In this document: piece after piece, positions 6,421 to 58,599 of the stretch
Numbering within the stretch: the first letter of the stretch is position 1
Layout of the letters: every line of letters begins with the position of its first letter
Assembly: GCA_019113245.1 (NCBI GenBank)
Contig: DXHU01000023.1
Coordinates: forward strand, 1 to 64,000
Length of the DNA stretch: 64,000 bases
From: Candidatus Ornithospirochaeta avicola
GTDB taxonomy: Bacteria > Spirochaetota > Spirochaetia > Sphaerochaetales > Sphaerochaetaceae
Direction of reading: 5' to 3'
Made by a program: the position numbers and the translations under genes
Notes under the pieces: model-generated
Databases searched by the model: none
Told to the model about the DNA's origin: nothing
What the model saw: only the letters and a program-made list of their open reading frames with translations

Positions 6421-6751
6421 CAGAATTCTCCTTTATGAAAGATTCATCAAGAGAGAAAACACATTTGCCTTTACATCTCAAGACCGGGGTCTTCAAGAGT
6501 TCAGGATGCTCAAGAAGCTCCTCTTTTAAAGAGAATTCTCTCCACTGGTATCCGTTTTTCCTGTAAAACGCAGAAGAAGTATCTATTATCTCATCATCAC
6601 AGCTGGAAGATGCTATGATGCTGTCTATTTCCTTTGGCGAGAGTTTCTTTTCAGAGACATTCAGCACCTGGAAGGCAATCCTTCTTTCTTTGAAGTATCT
6701 TACAGCCTTGTCGCTTTCTCTGTCCCCTTTCTTTATTATCAGCTGGATCAT
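6413..6751 (-). CDS. ArsC/Spx-fold small protein lacking the N-terminal Cys
   Basis: A 112-residue thioredoxin-fold protein. The second half has the ArsC/Spx family hallmark LLEHPELLKTPVLRCKGKCVF (about 80-100), and FYRKNGYQW fits the middle of the fold. The N-terminus, where arsenate reductases and Spx carry a reactive Cys after the first strand, reads LIIKKGDRESDKAV. The redox Cys is therefore absent and reductase activity is unlikely. It starts an operon with the WalJ-like and acyl-CoA synthetase genes. There is no Shine-Dalgarno sequence: a perfect TATAAT lies six bases before the ATG, so the mRNA is predicted to be leaderless. Confidence 0.75.
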   Translation of the reverse strand: MIQLIIKKGDRESDKAVRYFKERRIAFQVLNVSEKKLSPKEIDSIIASSSCDDEIIDTSSAFYRKNGYQWREFSLKEELLEHPELLKTPVLRCKGKCVFSLDESFIKENSDA

Positions 6752-6757
6752 GCTCTG

Positions 6758-6763
6758 ATTATA
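6758..6763 (-). promoter_or_regulatory. -10 element placing transcription start at the ATG (ArsC-like gene)
   Basis: TATAAT on the minus strand, with exactly six bases between it and the ATG at 6751, predicts +1 at the A of the start codon. No clear -35 box was found. Confidence 0.55.
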
Positions 6764-6918
6764 ATAATTAAAAACGCAAAGCGATAATAGATAAATCTCT
6801 CTTTTTCTTCAATTTGCTCTTTTCCTGCGGTAGTTAGAATATACTAGATTCCTATTTTGGGCTTTCTCAATTGATTAAAAATCATCTTTTGTACATAATC
6901 GCAGAAGGGAGATTAATT

Positions 6919-8304
6919 ATGGAAAAGAGAATCAAGGATTTACTTAACCTTGCACCATCTGATGAATGCATCAAGGCAGAGGGATGGGTAAGGACAAAGA
7001 GGGACAGCAAGAGTGTCTGTTTTCTCGAGCTCAACGACGGCTCATGCCTGAAAGGGCTTCAGCTTGTTATCGATAAAGAGACCTTCTCCAATAATAATCT
7101 CCTTGATGAAATCTCAACAGGATGCTCTGTTGAAGCAGAGGGCAGGATTGTAAAGAGCCAGGGAGGAGCCCAGAGTGTAGAGCTCCTTGTAAGCTCGCTT
7201 TCAATCATAGGAGAATGTCCTGCAGACTACCCTCTTCAGAAAAAGAGGCACACTGTCGAGTTTCTTAGAGAAAAAGCACACCTGAGGGCAAGGACAAACC
7301 TCTTTGGGGCTGTTGCAAGGGTCAGGAACACAATGGCCTACGCCATTCATTCTTTCTTCCAGGAGAACGGATTTGTATATGTCAACACTCCTCTTATTAC
7401 AGCCTCAGACTGCGAAGGGGCTGGAGAGCAGTTCCAGGTGACAACTCTTGACCTTGACAACATCCCGAAAACAGAGGACGGGAAAGTGGATTATTCAAAG
7501 GATTTCTTTGGCAAGAGTGCAAAACTCACTGTTTCAGGACAGCTGAACGGAGAGACCTATGCAATGGCACTGAAGAACATCTACACATTTGGCCCCACAT
7601 TCCGTGCAGAGAACAGCAACACTACAAGGCATCTTGCCGAGTTCTGGATGGTTGAGCCGGAGATGGCCTTCTGCGATTTGAATCTTGACATGGAAGTTGC
7701 AGAAAGCTTCCTGAAATACATATTCAAAGCTGTTCTTGACAAAAGGCAGGAGGACATGGACTTCTTTGACTCATTTGTTCTAAAGGGAGTTAAGGAAACT
7801 CTTGAGCATGTGATCACATCGCCTTTTGAACATATGACATATACCGATGCAATCAAGATTCTTGAGAAGAACAATGACAAATTCGAGTTCCCTGTCAGCT
7901 GGGGTTCTGACATACAGAGCGAGCATGAGAGGTACCTTACTGAGGTTGTTGCAAAACGCCCTGTGATCCTTACTGATTACCCGAAGGAAATCAAGGCTTT
8001 CTATATGAAGCTAAATGATGATGGAAAGACTGTAAGGGCAATGGATGTGCTTGCTCCGCGCCTTGGAGAAATCATAGGAGGAAGCGAGAGAGAGTACCGC
8101 TTGGATGTCCTTAAAGCAAGGATGAAGGAGCTGGGACTCAAAGAAGAGGATTACTGGTGGTATCTTGAGCTTAGGAAGTACGGCTCGGTTCCTCATGCAG
8201 GATTCGGACTTGGCTTTGAGCGCGCAGTCCAGTATGTCACAGGAGTTCAGAACATCCGTGACGTCATCCCGTTCCCTCGCTATGTAAAGAGCGCTGAATT
8301 CTGA
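6919..8304 (+). CDS. asnS: Asparaginyl-tRNA synthetase
   Basis: Charges tRNA-Asn with asparagine. The 461-residue product matches bacterial AsnRS (about 465). An N-terminal OB-fold anticodon-binding domain is seen ([22 protein letters not shown], about 20-42). Class II motif 2 appears in [25 protein letters not shown] (about 225-250) and motif 3 in [16 protein letters not shown] (about 430-445). The ATG at 6919 is preferred because GGGAG sits 8 bases upstream; an in-frame ATG 16 codons earlier has no ribosome site. It is monocistronic with a terminator after the stop. Direct tRNA-Asn charging by AsnS fits the presence of asnA in the same window. Confidence 0.96.
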
Positions 8305-8310
8305 TTTTGA

Positions 8311-8333
8311 GGCTGCTTTCGAGCAGTCTTTTT
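8311..8333 (+). terminator. Rho-independent terminator of asnS
   Basis: GGCTGCT and AGCAGTC (one G-T pair) form a stem around a TTCG tetraloop, followed by five Ts. It lies between asnS and the convergent yaiI gene and touches the yaiI stop. Confidence 0.85.
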
Positions 8334-8866
8334 CATTTGCTGAAACAGAGGAGAGCCTTGTCAAGCGCGTTTGCAAAGTTTTCCACAGTCTTGCTGTCAA
8401 AGCCCTTGGCCTTTTCAGCCTGTATCCCCCATTCTCTCATCTCCATCATTGCATTTCTGAGCGAAAGACGTTCTTTTATGTTGCTCTTGTCGTAGACTCC
8501 TCCCCTGTCATCAAGCACCAGAACACCCTTTTCTATAAGTCTTGATGCAAGAGGAATGTCATGGGTTATGGCAATGTCTTCACTCTCAGCAAGACTTACA
8601 AGCACATCATCAGCACTTCCCTCTCCGACAGCTACATGGATAAATCTCATCGTGCTCCTGATTTTCCTTATCTGGCTTTCATCGCAAATATTCTTTCTTG
8701 CCTCAGTTCTAAGTGCGTGCGTATGCTTTTCTATTGCAATATCTATATCCTTGATCCGTCTGTCAGCTGCAAAGACTGCACAAATATTATCCTTTATTAT
8801 TCTCCTTATAAGTATTTCTCTTTGCCTTAAAGGAAGTGAATCCGCATCTACAAGTATCTTTGCCAT
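8333..8866 (-). CDS. yaiI: YaiI/YqxD family protein (UPF0178, DUF188)
   Basis: A 177-residue PIN-like-fold family protein of unknown biochemical role. Family signatures are visible: KILVDADSLP at the start, FAADR near 33, VGEGSADDVLVSLAE (about 78-92), THDIPLASRLIEKG (about 100-113) and LDDRGGVYDKSNI. The acidic residues in the first and third motifs are those expected to bind metal in a PIN-like nuclease, but activity is unproven. No Shine-Dalgarno sequence is present. TAGAAT lies exactly six bases before the ATG, so the message is predicted to start at the start codon. Confidence 0.88.
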   Translation of the reverse strand: MAKILVDADSLPLRQREILIRRIIKDNICAVFAADRRIKDIDIAIEKHTHALRTEARKNICDESQIRKIRSTMRFIHVAVGEGSADDVLVSLAESEDIAITHDIPLASRLIEKGVLVLDDRGGVYDKSNIKERLSLRNAMMEMREWGIQAEKAKGFDSKTVENFANALDKALLCFSK

Positions 8867-8872
8867 AGCCAG

Positions 8873-8878
8873 ATTCTA
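8873..8878 (-). promoter_or_regulatory. -10 element at yaiI start (leaderless arrangement)
   Basis: Minus-strand TAGAAT with six bases before the ATG at 8866 predicts +1 at 8866. The hexamer is part of the palindrome ATTCTAGAAT. The -35 match is poor (TGTTCA). Confidence 0.5.
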
Positions 8879-8894
8879 GAATATTTTGCTTATG

Positions 8895-10689: not shown

Positions 10690-10983
10690 TCAGATTTTAT
10701 AGATTCTTTCAGGGTCCTTTGGATCCTGGCGGAAAAATACTGCAGTAAAGCCGACTGTAGTGACAAGCGTGCTTGCTGTTTTCTTCTCAAGCTCTCTGGA
10801 AAGAGCTGAAGTATCATCCTTATGGGAGTGAAATCTGACTTTAACAAGCTCATGATGAAAAAGCGCTTCATCAAGGGCGTTCACAACGCCCTCTGTAAGT
10901 CCTTCTTTTCCAACATATACAACTGGGTCTAAAAGCTGTGCCTGGGAGCGCAGGAACGCCCTCTGATAACTCTTCAATTCCAT
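10690..10983 (-). CDS. yhbY: YhbY/CRM-domain RNA-binding protein
   Basis: A 97-residue single CRM (CRS1-YhbY) domain protein that associates with pre-50S ribosomal particles in other bacteria. The fold-specific signatures are LKSYQRAFLRSQAQLLDPVVYVGKEGLTEGVV, which includes the GKEGLT loop of the family, and HELVKVRFHSH. The central GxxG is present. Two ATGs compete. The promoter TTGACA-17-TATTTT (11016-11021, 10993-10998) predicts transcription from about 10986, which lies inside the first ATG codon pair, so the second ATG (10983) with a three-base leader is preferred. No Shine-Dalgarno sequence exists. It lies directly after the acyl-CoA synthetase stop but has this separate promoter. Confidence 0.9.
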   Translation of the reverse strand: MELKSYQRAFLRSQAQLLDPVVYVGKEGLTEGVVNALDEALFHHELVKVRFHSHKDDTSALSRELEKKTASTLVTTVGFTAVFFRQDPKDPERIYKI

Positions 10984-10992: not shown

Positions 10993-11021
10993 AAAATACT
11001 GGAATAAGTGCGCTTTGTCAA
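10993..11021 (-). promoter_or_regulatory. Consensus promoter overlapping the yhbY start
   Basis: Minus-strand TTGACA (11021-11016), a 17-base spacer and TATTTT (10998-10993). The predicted start, about 10986, lies between the two candidate ATGs and implies an almost leaderless transcript. Confidence 0.7.
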
Positions 11022-11022
11022 A

Positions 11023-19200: not shown

Positions 19201-19206
19201 TATTAT
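19201..19206 (+). promoter_or_regulatory. -10 element at the folC start (leaderless arrangement)
   Basis: TATTAT with six bases before the GTG at 19213 predicts +1 at the G of the start codon. No Shine-Dalgarno sequence and no good -35 box are visible. Confidence 0.45.
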
Positions 19207-19212: not shown

Positions 19213-20484
19213 GTGATTAACAGCATTGAAGATCTTGATTCATTCTTTCTCTCTTATATGCCCTCTGGCGGAAGAAGCGGAGAAATCAGGGAAAACAGAT
19301 TAAAAAGGATGGCTGAGCTTCTAAAAGCACTTGGCAATCCTGAAAAAGACTTTAAGAGCATACATGTTGCCGGAAGCAAGGGAAAAGGAAGCACTTCAAG
19401 CATAATTGCCTTCCTTCTTGAGAAAAGCGGACACAGTACAGGCGTGTTCCTTTCTCCCCATGTCTATTCTCTTCTTGAGCGCTTCAAGAAGGGAGATGGA
19501 TATTTTCCTCTCTCCTCTTATTTCTCCTCTGCAGAAGTGCTGGAAGAAAAAGTGAGAAACCTTTCTTTTATCCCTACTACATTTGAACTTTATACTGCAT
19601 ACTCATATCTTCTTTTCTCAAGGGAGAAAGTCGAGTATGCTGTTATAGAAACGGGGCTTGGAGGAAGGATTGACAGCACGAACACGATTTCCTCTTTTGC
19701 AGAAGTGTTGCTGACAATTGAGCTTGAGCATACTGAGATTCTCGGCTCGACAATAAAAGAAATAGCAACAGAGAAAAGCAAGATTATAAAGGAAAACACT
19801 GATGTCTTTCTTTCTGAGAACAGCTTGGAGGCACTTGATGTGTTCATAAAGGAGAGTCAAGAGAAGAACTGTCGCATCCACTCTTTTTCCTCCATTGTCA
19901 GAGACTTTGAATACGATGAGAAAAAGGACGCGGGATTTCTTTCTTTCTCAATTGACGGAGAGAAATATGAAATAAGAAGCGCGCTGAGAACACTCAAGAT
20001 GATGAAGAACATAGCCCTTTCTGTTCTTACACTCAAAAGGCTCTCTCTGCTTGACAGGAAAAGTCTTGATTATCTCTCATTTTTTACAATTCCAGGGCGC
20101 TTTGAGGAAAGAAAAAGAGGAGAAAAGACAATCGTTCTTGATGTTGCGCATACAGAAGAAAGCATACTTAACTGTGCATGTACATTCTCTTCTCTCTATA
20201 AAAGAAGAAGATGCGTCATCTTCTCTGCAATAAAGGGAAAGAACTATAAAGCCATGATAGACATCCTTGCACTCTTTTTTGACACCATGATCTTCACAAA
20301 AACAATAGAATTCAAGAAAAGCGACCCAGAAGAAATCATGAGCTATGCATCAAGTGCATACCCTGAGAAAAAGCTTTATGTAATTTATGATGCAAAAGAT
20401 GCGCTAGAAAAGGCAAAAGAAAATGCAGATGACATCCTGATTGCAGGATCGTTCTATCTTATAACGGAGTATAAGGATGCTTAA
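19213..20484 (+). CDS. folC: Folylpolyglutamate synthase / dihydrofolate synthase
   Basis: Adds glutamate residues to folates, and glutamate to dihydropteroate in bifunctional forms. The 423-residue protein carries the Mur-ligase-type P-loop VAGSKGKGSTSS (about 50-61), the folate-binding FLSPHVYSLLERFKKGDG, ETGLGGRIDSTN (about 150) and a C-terminal domain with VLDVAHTEES. GTG at 19213 is chosen. A TTG 21 codons upstream would add a hydrophobic segment, foreign to the family, and would overlap the Pho box. Transcription is divergent from pstS. It overlaps rqcH by eight bases. Confidence 0.9.
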   Translation: MINSIEDLDSFFLSYMPSGGRSGEIRENRLKRMAELLKALGNPEKDFKSIHVAGSKGKGSTSSIIAFLLEKSGHSTGVFLSPHVYSLLERFKKGDGYFPLSSYFSSAEVLEEKVRNLSFIPTTFELYTAYSYLLFSREKVEYAVIETGLGGRIDSTNTISSFAEVLLTIELEHTEILGSTIKEIATEKSKIIKENTDVFLSENSLEALDVFIKESQEKNCRIHSFSSIVRDFEYDEKKDAGFLSFSIDGEKYEIRSALRTLKMMKNIALSVLTLKRLSLLDRKSLDYLSFFTIPGRFEERKRGEKTIVLDVAHTEESILNCACTFSSLYKRRRCVIFSAIKGKNYKAMIDILALFFDTMIFTKTIEFKKSDPEEIMSYASSAYPEKKLYVIYDAKDALEKAKENADDILIAGSFYLITEYKDA

Positions 20485-24463: not shown

Positions 24464-24994
24464 TTACTTTTTGCAAGATATCTGTCTGACTTCATCACAA
24501 ATGATGCGGACAATCTCGTCAACGCTCTTGTTGTCTGTATCGATTATGATGTCTGCAACGCTCTCAGGACGGTTGTTGTCAATGCCGTAGATGCGCATGT
24601 ATCTTGCACTGTCCCTCTTGTCGCGCTCTTCTGTTTCCCTGAATTTGTCCTCAAAGGATCCGCCTTCCCTCTTCTGGATTCTCATGGCCCTTGTCTTGCT
24701 CTGCGCCCTGAGATATACCTTCAAATCAGCATTTTTCAGCATCCAGATTGCAAGACGAGATCCGAGCACACAGTTTTCCTCACTCTCTGCCATCTTGACC
24801 TGACGCGAGTCAAGCTCGATGTCTATATTGTCATCACCTTCAGCAAGGGCACAGAAAGAAACAAAGTCCATGTTCCTCTCCTCTGCCATCTGACGGAAGG
24901 TGAAGTTTATCATCTTGTATCCAAGCTGGCTACTTAAAGCTTTAGTCACTGATGTATTTCCGCATCCGCTTTTAGAAGAAATCGCAATTCTCAT
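24464..24994 (-). CDS. Cytidylate-kinase-like protein with altered Walker A
   Basis: A 176-residue P-loop kinase fold similar to archaeal-type CMP kinases (COG1102-like). Evidence is RIAISSKSGCGNTSVTKALSSQLGY at the start, GSRLAIWML (about 78-86), the lid region RAQSKTRAMRIQKREGG and YGIDNNRPESVADIIIDTDNKSVDEI near the end. The P-loop has Asn where Lys normally contacts phosphate (GCGNTS), so catalysis may be altered; similar spirochaetal relatives may share this. There is no Shine-Dalgarno sequence. An extended -10 (TGC-TAAGAT) sits exactly six bases before the ATG, suggesting a leaderless message. Confidence 0.75.
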   Translation of the reverse strand: MRIAISSKSGCGNTSVTKALSSQLGYKMINFTFRQMAEERNMDFVSFCALAEGDDNIDIELDSRQVKMAESEENCVLGSRLAIWMLKNADLKVYLRAQSKTRAMRIQKREGGSFEDKFRETEERDKRDSARYMRIYGIDNNRPESVADIIIDTDNKSVDEIVRIICDEVRQISCKK

Positions 24995-25000: not shown

Positions 25001-25009
25001 ATCTTAGCA
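25001..25009 (-). promoter_or_regulatory. Extended -10 at the Cmk-like gene start
   Basis: Minus-strand TGC-TAAGAT with a six-base gap to the ATG at 24994 predicts +1 at the A of the start codon. Confidence 0.6.
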
Positions 25010-25029: not shown

Positions 25030-25893
25030 CTATTCAATATTCCTTATCTGCTCCCTGATGTTTTCAAGGCTGTCCTTCATTCTGACAACAATCAGATTTA
25101 TTTCCGCCATCTGACTCTTTGATGCAATCGTATTGGTCTCTCTGTTCATTTCCTGACAAAGGAAGTCCATTCTCTTTGAAACAGGTTCATCTTTTTCAAT
25201 GAGGGATCTGAACTCTTTTATATGTGAGCAAAGACGCTTTATTTCCTCGTTTATGGAATATTTGACAAGAAGGATGGCCATTTCCTCTTCAAGACGCTTT
25301 TCATCAAGATTGACATCGCCTTTGATTTCTTCATAGCGGCGGAGAAACAGGGATCTGAAATACTCCTCCATTTTCAAGGAAAGTGCTTCAATCTCATTCT
25401 TTCCATCCTCGAATTCTGAAAGAAGCCTCACTATATCCTTCTTTGTCTCTTCACCTTCCCTCTCCTTTTCCCTGACAATGGAATCAAGAGCAGCAGAAAG
25501 TGTGTCAACAAGCTCTTTTTTGTATGCGCCTTCGCTTTCAGATGAATCAACAGAAAGAAGCCCTGATATACCTATATAGTCATTAAGCGCAGCCTTTGCT
25601 CCTGTTTTCTTCTCAATCTCATCAAATGCGCTCTTATAGCTTTCAAGCAGACCCTCATCAAAGATTATCCTGCTCTCGCTTTTCTTGACGGCAAGACGCA
25701 CAAGAATCTCGACATGTCCTCTGCTGAGAGCTTTTTTCACCATCTCATCAATAAGCATCTCATAGGAAGAAAGACGTGATGGTATGTTCTTTACAATCTC
25801 AAGAAAACGTGAGTTGTAACTTTTAATTTGTACTTCAATCTGCAGGCTGTCATCAGAGTATGCAGCTCTGCCATAACCGGTCATGCTTCTCAA
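25030..25893 (-). CDS. yicC: YicC family endoribonuclease
   Basis: The 287-residue protein starts with the family hallmark MRSMTGYGRA, followed by IEVQIKSYNSRFLEIVKNIP (about 19-38). It ends with the C-terminal DUF1732 region: KRMDFLCQEMNRETNTIASKS then EINLIVVRMKDSLENIREQIRNIE. YicC proteins are RNA-degrading enzymes that influence small-RNA turnover in E. coli. The start overlaps the unknown upstream gene by four bases. Charged residues dominate the middle (about 140-220), predicted coiled coil. Confidence 0.93.
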   Translation of the reverse strand: MRSMTGYGRAAYSDDSLQIEVQIKSYNSRFLEIVKNIPSRLSSYEMLIDEMVKKALSRGHVEILVRLAVKKSESRIIFDEGLLESYKSAFDEIEKKTGAKAALNDYIGISGLLSVDSSESEGAYKKELVDTLSAALDSIVREKEREGEETKKDIVRLLSEFEDGKNEIEALSLKMEEYFRSLFLRRYEEIKGDVNLDEKRLEEEMAILLVKYSINEEIKRLCSHIKEFRSLIEKDEPVSKRMDFLCQEMNRETNTIASKSQMAEINLIVVRMKDSLENIREQIRNIE

Positions 25894-30471: not shown

Positions 30472-31399
30472 TTATTCCCTCCGGTGTGATTACAGCGCTT
30501 ATAAGAGTTCTGTCAACAAAATCGAATGCAGGATAAAGTGCTTCACAGCTTTCAGGGGCAATCCGGACTCCTGCAATTTGCTTGACTTCCTCTCCTCTTC
30601 TGTATTCCATCTCATAATCATCATTGCTGCTTCTTTTCAATGCGAAAGCATAATATGGTATATTGAAATAAGAAGCGCATATGGCATCAGCAAGCGTTCC
30701 TGTCTTGTTAATTATGCTCCCATTTTTTAAGTATCTGTCACTTGCTGTCATATAGAGAGTAATCTTCTTCTCATTCATCAGATTCGCCATCATTGCATCA
30801 GTTATCAAATACGCTCCGATGCCCATCTCCGTGAGGCTGGATATGGTAAGTCTGGCACCCTGAAGGTACGGCCTTGTCTCAGGAACATACACTTTTACAT
30901 CCTTTCCTGACAGCACAGCTTTTTTAACGCTCAGAAGAAAAGAATGCTCTGCAAAGCACCTTGTAAGGATTCCATCTCCGTCCTTGATTAAAGATGCTCC
31001 AAAGCTGCTCATTCTGTCATAGCATTCATCATAGTATGAAAAAAGCGATGAAACAGCTTTCTCTGCATCCTCCCCTTTTCTGACACAATCAAGAAGATGA
31101 TAAAGACTTTCCTTCATCGTGGTGTTGGTCTTTCTACTTGAAGAGAGAGTCTTCACAACATCATCTAAGTTGCTGTTCCTCCTTGATTCAAGAAGAAATG
31201 TATTGAGAGCAACTTCAAGAGGACCTCCGCCCTGGGTGACCATATCGCTTATTGCCTTGGCTGCCTCTTTATAATCCTTGCACACGATATATTTCCTCTC
31301 AAAAGGAAGCTTCCTTCTGTCAAGAATGTAAAGTGCATCGTCCTTAATATAGGAAATTCCCTCATGAGTGAGAATGAATGGAAGAAGGTCCTTCATCAT
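30464..31399 (-). CDS. Methylthioribose-1-phosphate isomerase-like (MtnA/eIF2B family)
   Basis: A 311-residue protein of the MtnA/eIF2B-alpha family. The expected catalytic Cys is present in GDGILTRCFAEH (Cys148) and the Asp in TASDRYLKNGSIINKTGT (Asp221). VYVPETRPYLQGARLT and GGGPLEVALNTFL support the fold. MtnA isomerises methylthioribose 1-phosphate to the ribulose form. It is shorter and more diverged than Bacillus MtnA, so a related sugar phosphate is possible. The start ATG overlaps the deaminase stop (ATGA). Confidence 0.8.
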   Translation of the reverse strand: MMKDLLPFILTHEGISYIKDDALYILDRRKLPFERKYIVCKDYKEAAKAISDMVTQGGGPLEVALNTFLLESRRNSNLDDVVKTLSSSRKTNTTMKESLYHLLDCVRKGEDAEKAVSSLFSYYDECYDRMSSFGASLIKDGDGILTRCFAEHSFLLSVKKAVLSGKDVKVYVPETRPYLQGARLTISSLTEMGIGAYLITDAMMANLMNEKKITLYMTASDRYLKNGSIINKTGTLADAICASYFNIPYYAFALKRSSNDDYEMEYRRGEEVKQIAGVRIAPESCEALYPAFDFVDRTLISAVITPEGINE

Positions 31400-31878
31400 G
31401 ACCAGAATCCGTCATGGGAAGAAAGGACTCTCTTGAGAATCTCTTCATCTTCCACCGGTCCCTCAACAACAATATCTTTCTGACCGCGGGAGATGACTTC
31501 ACGGCTTGAGAGATTGAATGTCGGATTCTCATCATTATCTTTAGTATATGAGAGAAGATCCTTCTCGCTTGCCCCGTATACAATGCGTCCTATATTCGCC
31601 CAGTATATTGCACCTGTGCACATGCAGCATGGCTCGAAATTTGAATACAGCGTGCATGTTTTCAATTTCTCAGGGCTGTAAAGCCGCGCAGCCTTAAGTG
31701 TAAGCAGAGTCTCTGCATGATATGCAGATCCACCTGTCTTGAACTCGTTTTTCTGTTCAAGAAGAATATTTCCATCCTCATCTGCAAGAAGAGCCGCAAA
31801 AGGATGATTGCCCTCTTTTCTAGACTCCTCAGCAAGAACACAAGTTCTTAAAATAAGTTTTTTATCAAGATCCGTCAT
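31396..31878 (-). CDS. Nucleoside/base deaminase (CMP-dCMP deaminase fold)
   Basis: A 160-residue zinc-dependent deaminase with AYHAETLLTL (HAE catalytic motif, about 52) and EPCCMCTGAIYW (PCxxC zinc ligands, about 81). The latter resembles guanine and tRNA-adenosine deaminases. The C-terminal region lacks the basic tail of TadA, so a free base or nucleoside substrate is more likely. The ATG at 31878 is chosen over a GTG 12 codons upstream. It has no Shine-Dalgarno sequence; TGC-TACAAT is eight bases upstream, predicting a two-base leader. It heads the salvage operon. Confidence 0.8.
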   Translation of the reverse strand: MTDLDKKLILRTCVLAEESRKEGNHPFAALLADEDGNILLEQKNEFKTGGSAYHAETLLTLKAARLYSPEKLKTCTLYSNFEPCCMCTGAIYWANIGRIVYGASEKDLLSYTKDNDENPTFNLSSREVISRGQKDIVVEGPVEDEEILKRVLSSHDGFWS

Positions 31879-31886: not shown

Positions 31887-31895
31887 ATTGTAGCA
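31887..31895 (-). promoter_or_regulatory. Extended -10 at the deaminase start
   Basis: Minus-strand TGC-TACAAT, eight bases before the ATG at 31878, predicts transcription from about 31880. Confidence 0.5.
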
Positions 31896-38722: not shown

Positions 38723-39817
38723 TTATACTAATGGCATGACCATGCTTAAAAGCAGTCCGCCGGCAAGAACAGAACCTATCTGACCAGAAACATTTGCACC
38801 GAGGGCAAACGGAAGAAGATGATTCTGCTTGTTTGCTTCAATTCCAACCTTCTGTACAACACGGGAAGACATCGGGAATGCAGATATTCCTGCTCCTCCG
38901 ATAAGAGGATTAATCTTCTTGTCTTTCTTCAAGAACAGGTTTGCTATCTTGCAGAAGAATACTCCACATGCTGTATCGAATACAAATGCGACAAGACCGA
39001 ATCCCATGATCATTATGGTCTCGACCTGAAGAAGCTTCTCACCTGACATCTGAGGAGCAATAGCAAGTCCAAGAAGCAGTGTGATAAGCGGAGAAAGAGT
39101 GTTCTGAGCAGCAAGTGAAAGACTGTCAAGAACTCCGCATTCTCTTAAAAGGTTGCCAAACATCAGCATTCCTACAAGAGCTGCTGAATCCGGTGCGATT
39201 ATTCCGCACACTATTGTTGTGATGATTGGGAAAAGGATTCTTGTTGTCTTGCTTACAGCCTTTGCTGAATAGTGCATCTGGATTGCTCTTTCATGCTTTG
39301 TAGTAGTCGCCTTTAAAACTGCAGGCTGAATAATCGGTACCAATGCCATATAGCAGTATGCGACAACAAGGATTGCAGGCACATAATTGCTCATCAGGCG
39401 CTGGGAAACAAGAATTGCAGTTGGTCCGTCTGCAGCTCCGATGATTCCAATTGAAGCTGCATCATTGATTGAAAATCCGAGTGCGGATGCAATCACCATT
39501 GAGATGAAGATACCGCCCTGACCTGCTGCCCCGATGAAGATAAGCCATGGCTTACTGAGAACAGGTCCGAAATCAATCATTGCTCCGATTCCGATAAACA
39601 ACAAGAGAGGGAAAACCTCACTGTCTGCGATACCGAACTGGAAAAGCCAGTTGAGTATGCCGTGTTCAGATGCAATTACAGAGCCTGGAAGATTTACCAG
39701 AATTGCACCAAATCCCATTGGAAGAAGAAGTGTCGGCTCCATCTCTTTCTTGATTGCAAGGAAGATGAGAAGCAAACCCACTCCTATCATAATAATCTGT
39801 CTAATCAACTCGTCCAT
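38723..39817 (-). CDS. Na+-transporting carboxylic-acid decarboxylase beta subunit
   Basis: A 364-residue membrane protein with about nine to eleven helices. It is the Na+-translocating subunit of the oxaloacetate/glutaconyl-CoA/methylmalonyl-CoA decarboxylase family. Signatures are PLLLFIGIGAMIDFGPVLSKPW (about 46-67), the Na+-site region SIGIIGAADGPTAILVS (about 121-137) and a C-terminal GISAFPMSSRVVQK. No alpha (carboxyltransferase) or biotin-carrier gene is in the window, so which acid is decarboxylated is unknown. The ATG has no Shine-Dalgarno sequence; an extended -10 (TGC-TACACT) lies exactly six bases upstream. The maltodextrin promoter and operator lie beyond it. Confidence 0.92.
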   Translation of the reverse strand: MDELIRQIIMIGVGLLLIFLAIKKEMEPTLLLPMGFGAILVNLPGSVIASEHGILNWLFQFGIADSEVFPLLLFIGIGAMIDFGPVLSKPWLIFIGAAGQGGIFISMVIASALGFSINDAASIGIIGAADGPTAILVSQRLMSNYVPAILVVAYCYMALVPIIQPAVLKATTTKHERAIQMHYSAKAVSKTTRILFPIITTIVCGIIAPDSAALVGMLMFGNLLRECGVLDSLSLAAQNTLSPLITLLLGLAIAPQMSGEKLLQVETIMIMGFGLVAFVFDTACGVFFCKIANLFLKKDKKINPLIGGAGISAFPMSSRVVQKVGIEANKQNHLLPFALGANVSGQIGSVLAGGLLLSMVMPLV

Positions 39818-39823: not shown

Positions 39824-39832
39824 AGTGTAGCA
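39824..39832 (-). promoter_or_regulatory. Extended -10 at the decarboxylase beta-subunit start
   Basis: Minus-strand TGC-TACACT, six bases before the ATG at 39817, predicts +1 at the start codon. A TGGAAA box 17 bases upstream is a fair -35 match. Confidence 0.5.
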
Positions 39833-45719: not shown

Positions 45720-46389
45720 AATAAAGCCCGAGTGACAGAATAGAAAGAGACAGGGCAATCTTAAGTATCCAGGAAAGGAGAATGTACTTGCTGTTTCTGG
45801 ATACTTTCTTTATCCATGAAACAGAGAGTGCGGTACATATTGAAAGGATTCCATAGCCAAGGGAGTAAAAGAGAAGCAGAATGAAGGAGAACATATAATC
45901 TGCTTTGACTGATGAAATTGAAAGAAGCGCAACAAGGACGGGTGTTGAACACGGTGATGAGAAAAGAGATGAGAGCATGCCGGATATAAATGCTCCTGCA
46001 TAGCCTTTTCTTCTGTTTTTTGAAACAAGATGAGAAGATGGAATGAAGGTGAAAAGCTCAGATATCTGCAATGCCATCAGGATCATGAGTATTCCTAAAA
46101 AGAAATACCATAATGGTCTTTCCTTTCCAATCATGATTGATAAAAACGATGCAGCCAAAGCAAGGGCTATGAACACGAGTGCAGAGCCTAAAGCATAGAA
46201 GAGAGCTGTCAGGAATGTGTTTTTCATGCTCCTTTCTCTTCCCGCCGTGTATGTGATTATCAAGGGAAGGGATGAAAGTGAGCAAGGAAGCACTGATGTT
46301 ATCATGCCGGCTAAAAATGCAAAAAGGGGCGCAAGCAGAGCATAGCGTTCAATCAGAGCGGCAAGAGAAGAAAGAGCGTCATTAATCAA
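45700..46389 (-). CDS. ccdA: CcdA/DsbD-type thiol-redox membrane protein
   Basis: A 229-residue membrane protein with about six helices that carries electrons from cytoplasmic thioredoxin to periplasmic thiols. The two expected membrane cysteines are present: VLPCSLSSLP (Cys36) and SSPCSTPV (Cys147), in symmetric positions of the duplicated fold. It overlaps the thioredoxin-like gene by eight bases, its probable partner. Cytochrome c assembly genes are not nearby, so a periplasmic reductant role is as likely. Confidence 0.88.
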   Translation of the reverse strand: MINDALSSLAALIERYALLAPLFAFLAGMITSVLPCSLSSLPLIITYTAGRERSMKNTFLTALFYALGSALVFIALALAASFLSIMIGKERPLWYFFLGILMILMALQISELFTFIPSSHLVSKNRRKGYAGAFISGMLSSLFSSPCSTPVLVALLSISSVKADYMFSFILLLFYSLGYGILSICTALSVSWIKKVSRNSKYILLSWILKIALSLSILSLGLYFIYLAL

Positions 46390-46957
46390 GATTCACCCCC
46401 ATTTCCTCTGCAATGATGACAGCCTCATCATAAAAAAGAGCTCCCATGTGGACTGTGTACACAACCTCCCCTGTTTCTTTGTCTGTGTAGTAGGCAAATC
46501 CAGAAATTTGCTCAACAAGGCTCTCAGAAGGTATGAAAGGTGTCATATCTGCATTGAAGAAGAACTGAGTCGGAACAACCTGGAGAGGGAAATAATAATT
46601 AATCTCAGGATGTTTCCATGCATCAAATCCCTTTATAGTGATGAAATCAGAATAATGGGCAAAGAATTTCTCAAAATCCTCCTCCATAAGTTCGCAGGCA
46701 TAGCAGTCCTCTCCATAAAAATCAATAATCAGAGGTTTATCAAAAGAAGAATACAGCTCAAAATCAAGAGTTTCAGTATAAAGGGATGAATAATCAAGAG
46801 CCACGCTTTCGTCTTGCGTAGTCTCAGCATTATGATTGTCTGCTGTTAAGACAGCACTTTCCTGCTCTTTATCATTGTTCTTGATGAAATACATGGAGAT
46901 TATTATCAGAATTATGATTGCTGGAACGATTATCTGCAGTATTTTCTTTGCCTTCAT
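46382..46957 (-). CDS. Membrane-anchored thioredoxin-like protein
   Basis: A 191-residue protein. An N-terminal membrane helix (about 8-25) is followed by a Ser/Thr/Glu-rich linker (about 27-62), then a thioredoxin domain with the active site DFYGEDCYACELMEEDF (CYAC, Cys85/Cys88) and the cis-Pro region QVVPTQFFF (about 127). It is expected to act on the outer face as the partner of CcdA. No Shine-Dalgarno sequence is seen. TGC-TAGAGT lies eight bases before the ATG. Confidence 0.85.
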   Translation of the reverse strand: MKAKKILQIIVPAIIILIIISMYFIKNNDKEQESAVLTADNHNAETTQDESVALDYSSLYTETLDFELYSSFDKPLIIDFYGEDCYACELMEEDFEKFFAHYSDFITIKGFDAWKHPEINYYFPLQVVPTQFFFNADMTPFIPSESLVEQISGFAYYTDKETGEVVYTVHMGALFYDEAVIIAEEMGVNLD

Positions 46958-46965: not shown

Positions 46966-46974
46966 ACTCTAGCA
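46966..46974 (-). promoter_or_regulatory. Extended -10 at the thioredoxin-like gene start
   Basis: Minus-strand TGC-TAGAGT, eight bases from the ATG at 46957, predicts a start at about 46959 and a two-base leader. Confidence 0.45.
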
Positions 46975-47031: not shown

Positions 47032-47982
47032 ATGGATAAAAACATTATTCTGACAAAAAAGGCGGTTGTCTTCTTTCTTGCAATGCTCTGCTGCTTTTTA
47101 TGGGGAAGCGCAACTCCGGCAATCAAGACTGGCTATGAGCTTTTCAGGATAGACAGCACGGACAGCCTTTCGATAATTCTCTTTGCAGGAATAAGATTCT
47201 TTCTTGCAGGAATACTGGTGATACTTTTCCAGTCTATTATGGACAGGAAATTTCTGAAAATGGAAAAGAAAGCGCTCCCATCTGTTTTAAAGCTTTCTCT
47301 TGCTCAGACAATACTGCAGTATTTCTGCTATTACATAGGACTGGCACATGTAAGCGGAGTAACAGGAACGATACTATCAGGAACCAGCGGATTTTTCTCT
47401 ATTATAATAGTCTGCCTGATAATCAGGACCGAAAAGCTGACTGCAAACAAGATAATAGGATGCATTATGGGGCTGCTTGGAATAATAATAATGAACATCA
47501 CGCTCACAGAAAGACTTTCTTTCCATTTTGCACTCAATGGAGAGTTCCTTGTTCTCATGTCGACAATATGTCTTGCTGTTTCAGGAATCCTCATCAAGAA
47601 ATATTCAGAGAATTTCAATGTCGTGATGCTCTCAGGATACCAGTTTGCAATCGGCGGACTCATAATGATAATAATCTCAATCCTGCTGGGAGGAAGAATT
47701 TATTTTGACTTCAGCCTAAAAGCCATTTTCCTGATGCTATATCTGGCTATGATTTCTGCTGTTGCCTATACAATCTGGGGAATACTGATGAAGTACAATC
47801 CGGTAAGCAGTGTGTCGATATTTGTTTTCATGACACCTATTTTCGGTGTAATTCTCTCAGCAATTTTCCTAAATGAAATCAAGCAGGCCCTTATGCTCAA
47901 CAAGATAATTGCGCTTGTTCTTGTCACTCTTGGAATATATATCATGAACTACCCCCGCTTAAGAAGCGGCGGTTTCGGATAA
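47032..47982 (+). CDS. EamA/DMT-family transporter with C-terminus replaced by element sequence
   Basis: A 316-residue ten-helix permease of the drug/metabolite transporter superfamily. Two EamA repeats are recognisable (FFLAMLCCFLWGSATPAIKTGY near residue 13-34, and a second repeat from about residue 160 with LMSTICLAVSGILIKKY). The substrate is unknown. The last residues (PRLRSGGFG) are encoded by the end of the inserted TnpB element. The likely original end, reading GLLVNRKEEAKVQKK and a stop, survives at 49346-49393 beyond the element. The helices are complete, so the protein may still work. Confidence 0.88.
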   Translation: MDKNIILTKKAVVFFLAMLCCFLWGSATPAIKTGYELFRIDSTDSLSIILFAGIRFFLAGILVILFQSIMDRKFLKMEKKALPSVLKLSLAQTILQYFCYYIGLAHVSGVTGTILSGTSGFFSIIIVCLIIRTEKLTANKIIGCIMGLLGIIIMNITLTERLSFHFALNGEFLVLMSTICLAVSGILIKKYSENFNVVMLSGYQFAIGGLIMIIISILLGGRIYFDFSLKAIFLMLYLAMISAVAYTIWGILMKYNPVSSVSIFVFMTPIFGVILSAIFLNEIKQALMLNKIIALVLVTLGIYIMNYPRLRSGGFG

Positions 47983-49263
47983 TCTTCGCTTCATCAGGCG
48001 ATCTTGTCCTTTGCGATAGCGCTCCAGCACTCCGCCGAGGATAGAGGAATCACCCTCCACGCAGGGCTCGTCCAGCCACTGGGCCCTTATAGCCGAGCCA
48101 AGCTTTTTTATCGTTTCCGCAGCATGGACATCCCTGTCGCCTTCCTCGCTTTCGCAATAGGCACAATAGAATTCTCTCTGGAAACGCCCGATGCTGTTCA
48201 CCTCGCCGCATGTGCAGCAGAGCTTCGTCGTCGGAAACCCGCGCTGTATGCAGAATGCGCGTTTCCCGTTCGTTCCGCTGAATATGCCCATCAGAAGCGC
48301 CTTCACCGCCCCGACGAACGAATGCTGCACGCGGCCTGAATAGGAAGGGGATGCGTGCCATGAGGCTATCATCTCGTCCTGGAAGTATACGGTATCGTAT
48401 CTCTCCATCAGATCCACGATGACCTTCTTCGCCGCATCCTTCTTCCGGTTGTATGCCTTCTCGCGTTCCACCCTAATCTGCATGAGGCATCGCTTATATC
48501 GGGTCGAGCCTTTCTTCTTCCTTGAGAGCTTCCGCTCCAGGAATCTGAGACGCTCCGTTTCCTCCTCGTAATAAGCGAACACCTCGCCATCTGACGTGGT
48601 TATCTTCGAAGGCCCGAAATCGAGCCCGACGGCCTTCCCCGTCTTCGCTCTCTTCGGCATATCGTCCTTATCTATGCAGACCGTAATCGCCACGTAATAG
48701 CCGGAAGGCTTCCTTATGAGCTTGCCGTCCGCAAACTCACATGAATCCCCGTACCGCTTAAGCTGTCCGAGGCCGTATACCCTGAGCTTCGGAAAGCCCG
48801 GAATGGATATCATCTCGGAGCCTTTTATCTTAACGAACCCGGTCTTGATGTCTATGGAATCGACGCTCTTCACGAAATGGAGCTTTCCGACCTCGATGCC
48901 CTTGGCCTTCGCCTTTGCGAGGTTGGATATATCGCGGAAAACCGCATCCACAACGCCTCTATGATAGACGGACGGCATGGTGATATCATCGGTTATCGCG
49001 TTCTTGTCCTTATCGTAATGGACGACCTTCTTATGCTCGTCGTACTTATATGAATGCGCGTCGTCGAGTGCGACGATACTGTTGCGGACCCATTTCGCTT
49101 CGGCGAATATCCTGCCGAGGCGGTCGGAATCAGAGGCGGAAAGCGTTGACTTGTTTACCTTCAGGAGCACGACGCGCTTCTCCTGATGCATCCGCTTCTC
49201 GCGGGTGGCTTTCAGGCTGGCGCTTATCCTGTTTCTGGTGGCTTCCGAACGCTTCGATTCCAT
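47959..49263 (-). CDS. tnpB: TnpB RNA-guided nuclease (OrfB, IS605 family)
   Basis: A 434-residue relative of Cas12. The split RuvC nuclease is intact: Asp215 in VGLDFGPSK, Glu297 in YFQDEMIAS and the third acidic motif EGDRDVHAAE (Asp376/378). The usual Asn of DxNAA is His here. Two Cys pairs (CCTC about 349-352, CAYC about 367-370) form the zinc finger. The first 24 residues (SEATRNRISASLKATREKR) are an extra basic segment resembling a NUMOD3-type DNA-binding motif. A later ATG at 49191 could be the real start. TGC-TATAAT lies six bases before ATG 49263. High GC and foreign codon use mark recent transfer. Confidence 0.93.
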   Translation of the reverse strand: MESKRSEATRNRISASLKATREKRMHQEKRVVLLKVNKSTLSASDSDRLGRIFAEAKWVRNSIVALDDAHSYKYDEHKKVVHYDKDKNAITDDITMPSVYHRGVVDAVFRDISNLAKAKAKGIEVGKLHFVKSVDSIDIKTGFVKIKGSEMISIPGFPKLRVYGLGQLKRYGDSCEFADGKLIRKPSGYYVAITVCIDKDDMPKRAKTGKAVGLDFGPSKITTSDGEVFAYYEEETERLRFLERKLSRKKKGSTRYKRCLMQIRVEREKAYNRKKDAAKKVIVDLMERYDTVYFQDEMIASWHASPSYSGRVQHSFVGAVKALLMGIFSGTNGKRAFCIQRGFPTTKLCCTCGEVNSIGRFQREFYCAYCESEEGDRDVHAAETIKKLGSAIRAQWLDEPCVEGDSSILGGVLERYRKGQDRLMKRRLSETAAS

Positions 49264-49269: not shown

Positions 49270-49278
49270 ATTATAGCA
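49270..49278 (-). promoter_or_regulatory. Extended -10 inside the TnpB element
   Basis: Minus-strand TGC-TATAAT with TTCCAT 17 bases upstream. The six-base gap puts +1 at the tnpB ATG 49263. Confidence 0.55.
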
Positions 49279-50173: not shown

Positions 50174-50202
50174 TTGAGTAGTTCTACCCTTTTTGCTAAA
50201 TT
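50174..50202 (+). promoter_or_regulatory. Promoter of the HAD gene, start at the ATG
   Basis: TTGAGT (50174-50179), a 17-base spacer, then TGC-TAAATT (hexamer 50197-50202) with six bases to the ATG at 50209, predicting +1 at its A. Confidence 0.6.
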
Positions 50203-50208: not shown

Positions 50209-50982
50209 ATGAAGCTTGATGCTGCATTCTTTGATCTTGACGGGACTATAATCATTCATCCAGAAAAGATAATCCTTGACTCTACTGTAGAGTCTATAAG
50301 GAAGCTGAAAGAAAAAGGCGTGAAAATCATATGCTCTACTGGACGCGGCATTACGGAAATAAGAAGACTTGAGCTGGAGAATATCCCTTTTGATTACTTC
50401 ATCACACTCAACGGACAGCTCATCCTGGATAAATACGAAAAGACTATCTGGGAAAATCCATTTCCTGATAGACACAAGGAAATAATAAAGAACATCTTTG
50501 AGAAAAAGAATCTTCCTGTGATGCTTGTTGAGAAAGAAAGAATGTACATAAACTACATTGATGATATCGTGAAGACTGTTCACTACAATATATCGACACC
50601 GCTTCCAGAAATCGGGGAATATGATGGTGCTACGTTATATCAGGTGATTGCATATGGAGAGAAAGAGGATGTGGATGCACTGGCTGCTCTGGTCCCGGAC
50701 AGCAAGGCTGTATATTGGACAAGTCTCGGCATTGATTTAATCCCTTCAAACGGCGGAAAGGAAACAGGAATCAAGGCTCTTCTGGATATCCTTTCAATAG
50801 ACAGAAAGAACACCATCTCTTTTGGAGACGGAGATAATGACAGGAGCATGCTTGAATACACTCAAATCGGAGTTGCCATGGCTAATGCAAGCGATGAAGT
50901 CAAGAAAAGCGCTGACTATGTGACGCTATCATGCAAGGAAGATGGAATTACTGCCGCTCTCAGACATTTTCAGCTTATCTGA
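50209..50982 (+). CDS. HAD-superfamily Cof-type sugar phosphatase
   Basis: A 257-residue Cof/YbiV-like phosphatase. Motif I with the nucleophile is FFDLDGTII (about 7-15), motif II ICSTGRG (about 42), the Lys near 190 (GGKETGIKALLDIL) and motif III/IV FGDGDNDRSMLEY (about 204-216). The C2-type cap lies between (about 85-180). Substrates are usually phosphosugars or flavin mononucleotide. There is no Shine-Dalgarno sequence before the ATG; see the promoter entry. It converges with the DMT transporter gene with a 13-base overlap. Confidence 0.9.
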   Translation: MKLDAAFFDLDGTIIIHPEKIILDSTVESIRKLKEKGVKIICSTGRGITEIRRLELENIPFDYFITLNGQLILDKYEKTIWENPFPDRHKEIIKNIFEKKNLPVMLVEKERMYINYIDDIVKTVHYNISTPLPEIGEYDGATLYQVIAYGEKEDVDALAALVPDSKAVYWTSLGIDLIPSNGGKETGIKALLDILSIDRKNTISFGDGDNDRSMLEYTQIGVAMANASDEVKKSADYVTLSCKEDGITAALRHFQLI

Positions 50983-51827
50983 ATCCTGATCTGGGAAATG
51001 ATTACTGCAAGAAATACAAGTGCTGCTCCCGCTATTTCCCTTGCGCTCATATACTGACCAAGAATCAGAGCTCCCCCAATAGCGGAGAAAACACTTTCCA
51101 AAGACAATATCAATGTTGCTCTTGTGCTTTTTACATACTTCTGACTGACTGCTTGGAGCGTATAGGCAATGCCGCATGAGAATGCACCGGCATATATGAT
51201 TGAAACAGATGCCTTCTTGATGCTTTCCGCGTCAACGGACTCAAAGAAAGGAAAGAGGAAAAGAAGAATGGCAGATGAGAACAGAAACTGGAAGAAACTC
51301 ATCTCCACTGCACCTGTATCCTTTGTATAATTTTCCAGTGCAATAATATGGAATGCAAAGAAAACGGAGCAAAGCAGAAGATAAATATCTCCCTTGCCTA
51401 TTGAAAAGCCGCTTTTTATGCATAAGAGGTACATTCCTAAAAGCGCTATTGCAGCAGAGACCCATGTCTTCTTCTCAATCTTCACTTTCCTCAAAACAAG
51501 AATGAAGGGGACGATTACTACATATAAACTTGTTATGAAACCGCCTTTTCCTGCTGTTGAATAAGATATTCCAATCTGCTGAAGCATGCTTGCCAAAGAA
51601 AGAAGAAATGCAAGTACAATGCCTTTTCTCATGCATTTTTTTCTGTATTCCTTATCCTTCAGGCTGTTTTTGACAAAAGGTAGAAGGACCAGCGAGCCTA
51701 AGAGCATTCTGCTGCCGTTGAAGAAAAAAGGTCCTACGAGATCTGAGGAGACACTCTGGGCAACAAAGCTCATTCCCCAGATGAATGCGGTAAGGAAAAG
51801 TAATATGCTTGCTCTATTTTCGCTCAT
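50970..51827 (-). CDS. EamA/DMT-family transporter
   Basis: A 285-residue permease with two five-helix EamA repeats: ILLFLTAFIWGMSFVAQSV near residue 8-26 and a second repeat (about 145-280) with SIIYAGAFSCGIAYTLQAVSQKYVKSTRAT. The substrate is unknown. It is distinct from the copy at 47032. The start has no Shine-Dalgarno sequence; TATAAT lies seven bases before the ATG, so the message is predicted to be leaderless. Confidence 0.9.
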   Translation of the reverse strand: MSENRASILLFLTAFIWGMSFVAQSVSSDLVGPFFFNGSRMLLGSLVLLPFVKNSLKDKEYRKKCMRKGIVLAFLLSLASMLQQIGISYSTAGKGGFITSLYVVIVPFILVLRKVKIEKKTWVSAAIALLGMYLLCIKSGFSIGKGDIYLLLCSVFFAFHIIALENYTKDTGAVEMSFFQFLFSSAILLFLFPFFESVDAESIKKASVSIIYAGAFSCGIAYTLQAVSQKYVKSTRATLILSLESVFSAIGGALILGQYMSAREIAGAALVFLAVIISQIRIQIS

Positions 51828-51834: not shown

Positions 51835-51840
51835 ATTATA
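51835..51840 (-). promoter_or_regulatory. -10 element at the DMT transporter start
   Basis: Minus-strand TATAAT, seven bases from the ATG at 51827, predicts +1 at about 51828. Confidence 0.5.
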
Positions 51841-56028: not shown

Positions 56029-56549
56029 AAAGCGTACTAATTGTTGTAGACTGGCAGAATGATTTCATTACAGGATCACTTGGTTTCAAAGGAGCCGAAA
56101 CTCTTGATGCTGTGATTGCCGCAAAAATCAGAAAGTACAGAAAAGATGGAGCGGACATAATCTTCACCTTCGATACACATCAAGATGATTACCTGAGCAC
56201 AAGAGAAGGAAAAGATTTACCGCTTCCCCACTGCATAAAAGGCACTGTTGGGCATGAGCTTTACGGAAGAGTCAGAGATGAAAAAGAAGATGAAGACATA
56301 GTGCTTGAAAAGCCCACATTCGGTTCTCTTGAACTTGCTTCTGTTCTTCAGAAAATGAAATATGAAAAGATAGAGCTTTGCGGACTTGTATCCAATATAT
56401 GTGTACTCTCAAATGCTGTAATTGCAAAGGCAGCCCTGCCGGAGGCGGAGATAATCATTGATAAAAAAGCAACATCATCAGCAGACAATAAGCTTAACGA
56501 TGCTGCTTTAAATGTCCTAGCGGGGCTTTTTATCAAAATAATCTCTTAG
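56025..56549 (+). CDS. Nicotinamidase/isochorismatase family protein, CTG start
   Basis: A 174-residue cysteine hydrolase, probably nicotinamide to nicotinic acid for NAD salvage. It has the Asp in VVDWQNDF (about 7-14), a Lys in EKPTFGS (about 91-97), HCIKGT with a cis-peptide-like turn, and the nucleophile Cys in CGLVSNICVLSNAV. CTG at 56025 overlaps the ppk stop as CTGA and has AAGGAG six bases upstream, and it begins exactly where the family fold does. An in-frame ATG at 55998 is the alternative, but its AGGA is only three bases away. Confidence 0.83.
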   Translation: MKSVLIVVDWQNDFITGSLGFKGAETLDAVIAAKIRKYRKDGADIIFTFDTHQDDYLSTREGKDLPLPHCIKGTVGHELYGRVRDEKEDEDIVLEKPTFGSLELASVLQKMKYEKIELCGLVSNICVLSNAVIAKAALPEAEIIIDKKATSSADNKLNDAALNVLAGLFIKIIS

Positions 56550-57619
56550 TACTCATCCCAGTGCTCATCCATCTTCTTCATCAGCTGAATCTGGTTTCTT
56601 GCTCTCACAATGTTATGCTCAGGATACGCAATGTGGTAGTAAACATCTCCGTTCAGATAGTCTGTGAGGAATCTGACTGCCATAATCTGCGTAATTGTCC
56701 TTCCGCTCTCTTTTATGAGGCTTTTTTCAATATCCTCAAGATAATCTGCCTTTTCAAGATATCCTTTGAAGATTGACTTGTAGAAAGACACAGAGAAATC
56801 GATTTTAGACAGATCCTTCTCATCTTCTGTGACAGTTGAGCAGCTAACCCTGATCATATCTCCTGTATCAAAGAGAATTGTTCCGGGCATTATTGTATCA
56901 AGATCAATTACACAGATTCCTTCACCTGTCTTTTTTGAAAACAGCACATTATTGAGCTTCGTATCATTGTGAGTAACTCTGCTTGGTATGCTGCCGTCAG
57001 CAAAGCCATTCCAGATTCTGCATCCTCTTTCCTTGTTTGCATAAAGGAATTCAAGCTCAGCAGAAACAAGAGAAAGCCTACCTGCCTTATTGTTTCTTAC
57101 AGCCTCATCAAGCTGCTCATAACGCCAGTTCATGTTATGGAAGTCCTTGATAGTCGTATAGAGCTTGCTTGAATCAAAATCAGAAAGCTGACTCTGGAAA
57201 TTTCCTATTGCACGACCAAGCTCGTATGCAATCTTGTCACTGTCCATCTTGTCAAAAGTATCCACATCATCAATGAAGTGATATGTTCTCCAGTACTCTC
57301 CATCGCTGTCGATATAATACGGCTTTCCATCCCTGGACAACACAACAGAAAGACAGCGGGATTCAGCTTCATCCATTCTTCTGACCTTGTTCTGTATATG
57401 TTCTGTCACCAGCATTATATTTGACATGACCTCATCAGGATGAGTAAAGACACTCTTGTTTATCATCTGATGAGTGTATTTCCTGACTTTTCCGTTTTCT
57501 GTGAATGTCGAGATAAATGTGGAATTGATATGCCCCTGAGTATTTATCTTAATCTTCTCAAGCTCTCCATCAATTCTAAAATTCCCTATTATGCTTTTTG
57601 CTTTCTCAAGGTTGTCCAT
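56546..57619 (-). CDS. N-acetylhexosamine 1-kinase-like (NahK/APH family)
   Basis: A 357-residue aminoglycoside-phosphotransferase-fold kinase similar in length and motifs to bifidobacterial N-acetylhexosamine 1-kinase: RVTHNDTKLNNVLF (about 215-228, catalytic loop) and CVIDLDTIMPGTILFDTGDMIR (about 238-259, metal site). It would phosphorylate GlcNAc/GalNAc at C1. The ATG at 57619 has GGAGG five bases upstream; an ATG four codons earlier is rejected. It is divergent from a PocR/AraC regulator that probably controls it and the downstream PTS. Its stop overlaps the nicotinamidase stop by four bases. Confidence 0.83.
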   Translation of the reverse strand: MDNLEKAKSIIGNFRIDGELEKIKINTQGHINSTFISTFTENGKVRKYTHQMINKSVFTHPDEVMSNIMLVTEHIQNKVRRMDEAESRCLSVVLSRDGKPYYIDSDGEYWRTYHFIDDVDTFDKMDSDKIAYELGRAIGNFQSQLSDFDSSKLYTTIKDFHNMNWRYEQLDEAVRNNKAGRLSLVSAELEFLYANKERGCRIWNGFADGSIPSRVTHNDTKLNNVLFSKKTGEGICVIDLDTIMPGTILFDTGDMIRVSCSTVTEDEKDLSKIDFSVSFYKSIFKGYLEKADYLEDIEKSLIKESGRTITQIMAVRFLTDYLNGDVYYHIAYPEHNIVRARNQIQLMKKMDEHWDEY

Positions 57620-57685
57620 GTTTGCCTCCATTTTTAATTCTAAAACAGCTAATTGATAAGAAAATAGTGCTTACTGCTTTCTATA

Positions 57686-57713
57686 TGGACAAATCTGCAA
57701 AGAAAAATATAAT
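57686..57713 (+). promoter_or_regulatory. Promoter of the AraC-type regulator, start next to the ATG
   Basis: TGGACA (57686-57691), a 16-base spacer, then TATAAT (57708-57713) and seven bases to the ATG at 57721, predicting transcription from about 57720. Confidence 0.6.
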
Positions 57714-57720
57714 GAAAAAT

Positions 57721-58599
57721 ATGGATTCAGGTCATTTTTATTTCTCACCGAAGATTAAACCCATTATTGACAGCTTTTCATCCCTTTTGAATGTGAAAAT
57801 CACATTCTATTCATCAAGCATGGATGAATGGCTTACAGGTTACCACACTGGAAAATCAGATTTCTGCACCATGCTTCAAAAAGAGCTTTCATCCCGTGTC
57901 AGATGCATGCAGCAGGATGACCAAATGTGCAGAAAGTGCAAGCTCAACAAAAAAAGCTATGTATATAACTGCTACGCGGGGCTGACAGAGATTGTCATAC
58001 CTGTATTCGTGGATGAGGATAATCTTCTGTATGCTTTTGTCGGACAGTTCAGGACAAAAGAGAATCTGAATGAGAAAATAAAGGAGGAGATTAGAAAAAA
58101 GAACCTGGATGTTGATGATTTTGAGAAAGCTTTCCTTGACCGTCCTTATTTTTCTCAAAAGCAGGTTGATGATATGCTCCTTATTTTCCAGCGTTTCTGC
58201 GAGTATATTATAAAGACAGAGGATCTGAAAGTAAAAGCATCCTCCCTTTGCGAGAGCATCATGCTCTACATAAAAGATAATCTTTCAAAGCCTGTAAGCA
58301 TTTCTGATGTAGCATCATTTATAAGCAAGAGCGAATCTACTATCACCCATGTGCTGAAAAAAGAGACCGGCCTTTCTTTTAAAGAATATCTAATTGAATG
58401 CAGAATCAATGAATTTGAAAAAATTGTAATCAATAATCCTGATATAGCAATAAACGAAGCTTCACGGCTTGTCGGATATGACGAGAGCCTTTATTTCTCA
58501 AGACTTTATAAAAAGAAAAGAGGCAATCCTCCTTCTACATTTGTCCGCTACGCAAAAGAGATATACAAAAAAAGCGGAGCTCTGCACTACTCCATCTGA
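57721..58599 (+). CDS. PocR-domain AraC-family regulator
   Basis: A 292-residue activator. An N-terminal PocR ligand-binding domain (about 8-170) has a Cys-rich part CMQQDDQMCRKCKLNKK (about 62-78) typical of that sensor, with YNCYAGLTEIVIPVF. It is followed by a C-terminal double HTH (about 195-285: SISDVASFISKSESTITHVLKKETG and INEASRLVGYDESLYFSRLYKKKRG). ATG 57721 is preferred because TATAAT lies seven bases upstream; earlier ATGs at 57685 and 57712 lie in or before the promoter. The neighbouring kinase and PTS genes suggest a hexosamine-related ligand. Confidence 0.85.
   Translation: MDSGHFYFSPKIKPIIDSFSSLLNVKITFYSSSMDEWLTGYHTGKSDFCTMLQKELSSRVRCMQQDDQMCRKCKLNKKSYVYNCYAGLTEIVIPVFVDEDNLLYAFVGQFRTKENLNEKIKEEIRKKNLDVDDFEKAFLDRPYFSQKQVDDMLLIFQRFCEYIIKTEDLKVKASSLCESIMLYIKDNLSKPVSISDVASFISKSESTITHVLKKETGLSFKEYLIECRINEFEKIVINNPDIAINEASRLVGYDESLYFSRLYKKKRGNPPSTFVRYAKEIYKKSGALHYSI

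Follow-up and report, generated by a model that had tools for sequence, protein, structure and literature searches.

The stretch of DNA analysed here (the window) spans the initial 64 kb of a contig that is 290 kb long and belongs to an assembly of 23 contigs totalling 1.5 Mb. The host is an uncultured gut spirochete, and the best named homologues of a decarboxylase beta subunit encoded in the window come from uncultured Spirochaetales and Candidatus Ornithospirochaeta, at 83-91% identity. Twelve genes in the window have a TANNNT hexamer, a candidate −10 element, just 5' of the start codon; we refer to the number of bases between hexamer and start codon as the gap. On the minus strand, an ArsC-like gene (6413-6751), whose Pfam ArsC match is weak and under the cut-off, has TATAAT at 6758..6763, with a gap of 6 to ATG 6751, and yaiI (8333-8866; DUF188) has TAGAAT at 8873..8878, with the same gap to ATG 8866. 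The hexamer of yhbY (10690-10983; CRS1_YhbY) is TATTTT at 10993..10998, with TTGACA 17 bases upstream and a gap of 9 to ATG 10983; this start is ambiguous, and the alternative ATG 10989 gives a gap of 3 in place of 9. A cmk-like gene (24464-24994) has an extended −10, TGC-TAAGAT, with its hexamer at 25001..25006 and a gap of 6 to ATG 24994, in the short spacer that follows a yicC-like gene (25030-25884). Extended −10 elements also precede, on the same strand, a deaminase gene (31396-31878; TGC-TACAAT, 31887..31892, gap 8 to ATG 31878), the decarboxylase beta subunit gene oadB (38723-39817, OAD_beta; TGC-TACACT, 39824..39829, gap 6 to ATG 39817), a thioredoxin-like gene (46382-46957; TGC-TAGAGT, 46966..46971, gap 8 to ATG 46957) and a tnpB-like gene (47959-49263; TGC-TATAAT, 49270..49275, gap 6 to ATG 49263). 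The tnpB-like gene is a weaker case, the coding-score caller described below favouring a start at 49191. A DMT transporter gene (50970-51827, minus) has TATAAT at 51835..51840, 7 bases from ATG 51827.

The plus-strand genes are folC-like (19213-20484; Mur ligase domains), with TATTAT at 19201..19206 and a gap of 6 to GTG 19213, a HAD hydrolase gene (50209-50982), with an extended TGC-TAAATT whose hexamer occupies 50197..50202, 6 bases from ATG 50209, and a gene for a PocR/AraC regulator with PocR and HTH_18 domains (57721-58599). The last has TATAAT at 57708..57713, with TGGACA 16 bases upstream and a gap of 7 to ATG 57721, and is also a weaker case, as the caller favours the in-frame ATG 57685. 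The initial annotation had read these twelve genes as leaderless, lacking a Shine-Dalgarno (SD) site and having a −10 hexamer 6–8 bases before the start codon. All twelve hexamers are present, 6–9 bases 5' of the start codon; the proposed spacing of 6–8 holds for 11 of the genes and fails for yhbY only. The gap is 6 in seven genes, in agreement with the seven to eight for which +1 had been placed on the initial base of the codon; in the others it is 7 (two genes), 8 (two) and 9 (one). TGC precedes six of the 12 hexamers, as had been noted. Eleven of the genes have no SD-like match of at least 4, and in the thioredoxin-like gene the match is limited to 4 bases, while the neighbours named as SD-led (asnS, pstS, pfkA, dat and pfp) do have SD-like sites.

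The initial annotation had also proposed a genome-wide scan of this spacing. Ours covered 1.02 Mb, ~68% of the genome, with 850 called genes, and over this sample the spacing is far commoner than chance. Gene starts were set by a purpose-written caller from coding score and start-codon type, with neither −10 nor SD used. A gene was taken as unit-leading if the sequence upstream of it was free over at least 50 bases (n=406), and 206 of these genes, without an SD-like match of at least 4, as SD-less. A 16S gene was not found in the assembly, and SD use was judged from upstream motifs. Among the 206 SD-less unit-leading genes, a strict hexamer stood at gap 6 in 29 cases and at gap 7 in 19, with ~2 at other positions. 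A looser hexamer at gap 6–7 was present in 73 of them, compared with 9.1 (sd 3.0) in dinucleotide shuffles (300 rounds, maximum 17). Unit-leading genes with an SD match of at least 5 had the strict hexamer 0 times at gap 6 and twice at gap 7, their hexamers being spread over 15–26, and the gap 6–7 peak was not seen in 373 operon-internal genes. Start-adjacent −10 genes thus stand beside SD genes, and the two initiation modes that had been suggested do appear to coexist.

An unsupervised EM mixture fit, in which gaps 0–28 were equally allowed, gave 38% to gap 6, 33% to gap 7 and 9% to gap 8, and put 112 of the 406 unit-leading genes (27.6%) in a start-adjacent −10 class. The same fit on operon-internal genes and on all genes did not find the TATAAT class, as expected if the signal is limited to unit-leading genes. 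A simple background-subtracted count gave ~77/406. From these values we estimate that putative leaderless genes make up 19–28% of unit-leading genes and ~9–13% of all called genes. By chance, a hexamer falls at gap 5–9 in roughly 10% of SD-less genes, so some single leaderless calls are false. A further ~108 unit-leading genes of the 406 lack an SD match as well as a −10 next to the start codon, possibly reflecting incorrect starts, weak signals or a third initiation mode.

A common bacterial initiator pattern is a pyrimidine at −1 and a purine at +1. Although the base at −1 plays no role in candidate selection, it is a pyrimidine in 88 of 98 candidates (90%) versus 78 of 130 SD genes (60%, p=4e-7); operon-internal genes have a pyrimidine there in 42% of cases. 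By gap, the counts are 42/44 at gap 6, 26/29 at gap 7 and 11/11 at gap 8. The bias is repeated in four genus relatives (30/32 candidates vs. 36/69, p=3e-5). Since this pyrimidine is followed by the purine of the start codon, transcription most likely begins on the initial base of that codon, also where the gap is 7 or 8, although we infer this exact position from the base pattern. The candidates begin with ATG (91) or GTG (7) and never with TTG (0). Matches of at least 4/6 to a −35-like element were found in 33 of 73 candidates versus ~11 expected, and a TGn extension in 23 of 73 versus a ~6% background.

A comparison with relatives, which the initial annotation had suggested as well, found the hexamer mostly retained in the yaiI, deaminase and oadB orthologues. 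For yaiI a near-start hexamer was present in 25 of 30 related genomes (background 5), and for the deaminase it was present at the aligned ATG in 22 of 30 (background 1.2). In oadB the hexamer was at gap 5–9 in 10 of 14 genomes (background 0.5); SD was absent in 14/14, and the remaining four have a hexamer at gap 9–10 of an in-frame start. Some oadB and deaminase orthologues (L061-L063, L069, L300, L303-L305) likely start leaderless at an in-frame ATG some codons upstream of the aligned ATG, or have a gap of 10. When this genome was compared with four others of the genus, the orthologue was leaderless for 7 of 15 leaderless genes and for 5 of 43 SD genes (Fisher p=0.008). Together, the sequence statistics and this conservation show both the position of the putative promoters and the absence of SD. 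The calls for the ArsC-like, folC, thioredoxin-like, tnpB, HAD, DMT and PocR genes, which are without orthologue support, are individually less certain.

These comparisons bear on the possibility that the start codons were misplaced, each hexamer being the −10 of a normal promoter and the true start an in-frame codon further downstream, served by an SD and a normal leader of its own. The alternative in-frame starts that the caller favours for tnpB and PocR, two of the twelve genes, would fit such an explanation. However, protein similarity among orthologues reaches the first residues (in most genomes the cmk and deaminase alignments begin at residue 1), the hexamer position follows the conserved start, and misplaced starts would account neither for a spacing peak as narrow as two bases nor for the pyrimidine at −1. 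We therefore consider misplacement very improbable.

The cmk locus offers a natural before/after pair of an SD-coupled and a leaderless start. Across 30 genomes (L250-L279), cmk has an SD-led start in 28, and in most of these the start overlaps the stop of the upstream gene (ATGA), which we take to be yicC-like from its N-terminus. The start appears leaderless in two of the 30, this genome and G020, a near relative, both of which have a ~36-base yicC/cmk spacer containing an extended −10 at gap 6. In G023, G003 and G034 the spacer is ~55 bases long and has a strong SD.

For the spread of the signal, SD-less unit-leading genes were counted in sampled stretches of ~50–115 genes per genome. Within the genus, hexamers at gap 5–9 numbered 11 against a background of 2.5 in G020, 9 against 1.5 in G034, 13 against 1.2 in G032, 7 against 3 in G014 and 3 against 2 in G023. 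Outside the genus, counts in eight genomes of the class and in one of the phylum were mostly near background (e.g. 2 vs. 1.0, 2 vs. 1.2 and 2 vs. 1.7), with slight excesses in G058 (6 vs. 2.7), G048 (6 vs. 3) and G054 (3 vs. 0.3). The candidate leaderless signal is thus strong in most sampled genus genomes and weak in most sampled class relatives, a contrast that is clear when the genus is taken together and not for each genome. That the hexamers are chance matches in leaders of high AT content, or an AU-rich enhancer bound by S1 and not a promoter, is an explanation that suits the AT-rich upstream regions (67%) and the full-length S1 protein encoded in the genome, but it is refuted in the main and scarcely credible given the excess over dinucleotide shuffles (73 vs. 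9), the persistence of the signal in genus members of 50–53% GC (G034 and G032), the fixed spacing, the extended −10 and the −35-like matches.

Divergent gene pairs in which both genes appear leaderless are separated by a median of 59 bases, compared with 143 when both are SD-led (p=6e-5); leaders and SD sites need space. A surplus of such leaderless/leaderless pairs was considered and dropped, as 17 were observed and ~16 are expected from class frequencies. Outside the window, divergent leaderless pairs ~50–65 bases apart are found in this genome at G000 contig C23:108328-110380, C23:111335-112539 and C23:208505-209510, and further pairs with this separation occur elsewhere in the genome. At ~50–65 bases, back-to-back promoters would have to share or overlap their −35 regions.

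Both the twelve-gene pattern and the genome-wide class are, with high probability, leaderless genes with a start-adjacent promoter of the sigma-70 type. The gap peak, the EM fit, the pyrimidine at −1 and the conservation among orthologues all support the leaderless reading of the initial annotation. Under this model, a sigma-70-type promoter, composed of a TANNNT −10 that is often TGn-extended and a partial −35, would lie 6–8 bases 5' of the start codon. RNA polymerase would take the initial A (or G) of this codon as +1, so that the mRNA starts with 5'-AUG. Such an mRNA would have no space for an SD, and we infer that the ribosome must initiate on the 5'-terminal AUG, as in leaderless mRNAs elsewhere. 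In the same cell, operon-internal genes and many other unit-leading genes would be initiated in the usual way through an SD.

For the genus, a broader proposal has perhaps an even chance of being right: leaderless starts would be a major mode, conserved gene by gene and well above most of the class, with cmk-type genes having recently exchanged an SD-coupled start for a leaderless one or the reverse, and the short promoter regions of divergent leaderless pairs (median 59 bp) would suggest that leaderlessness may accompany genome compaction. A leaderless-rich lineage among leaderless-poor sampled relatives would make it possible to trace, per gene, how initiation modes are gained, lost or switched. 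For annotation, gene-finding programs built around an SD may overlook start codons in such genomes or put them in the wrong place.

Among the papers searched, those naming the genus do not, by title or abstract, deal with transcription starts, and none that links leaderless genes to Treponema and Spirochaetes is on point. In Deinococcus-Thermus, a TANNNT a few bases upstream of SD-less ORFs has been shown experimentally to be the −10 of leaderless genes (PMC12340547). The spirochete signal is similarly ORF-adjacent and SD-less, its role being assigned from sequence; unlike in Deinococcus-Thermus, it occurs in another phylum, with −35-like matches enriched and an SD in most operon-internal genes. 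In Leptospira interrogans, a spirochete too, dRNA-seq mapped ~440 mRNAs whose leaders are <10 nt long, and <2 nt in half of them (PMC5243855). It is distant, however, and the genes described here are predicted, with a hexamer next to the ORF and conservation among orthologues. A survey of 953 genomes found a TA-led signal ~10 bp upstream of the start, in Spirochaetes in 6 of 18 genomes and 1.8–6.9% of genes (PMC3160421); the signal is the same, and the ~9–13% of genes estimated here comes from another method and is not strictly comparable. In Mycobacterium, a large minority of transcripts start at the start codon, alongside SD genes (PMC3898074). Leaderless and SD genes appear to coexist here in the same way, whereas Mycobacterium belongs to the Actinobacteria and ATG dominates in our candidates (91 ATG, 7 GTG, 0 TTG). 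The leaderless mechanism is already known; what is new, and well supported, is the host group, its higher share of such genes and their gene-level conservation, with which a sizeable group of uncultured gut bacteria would join the leaderless-rich bacteria.
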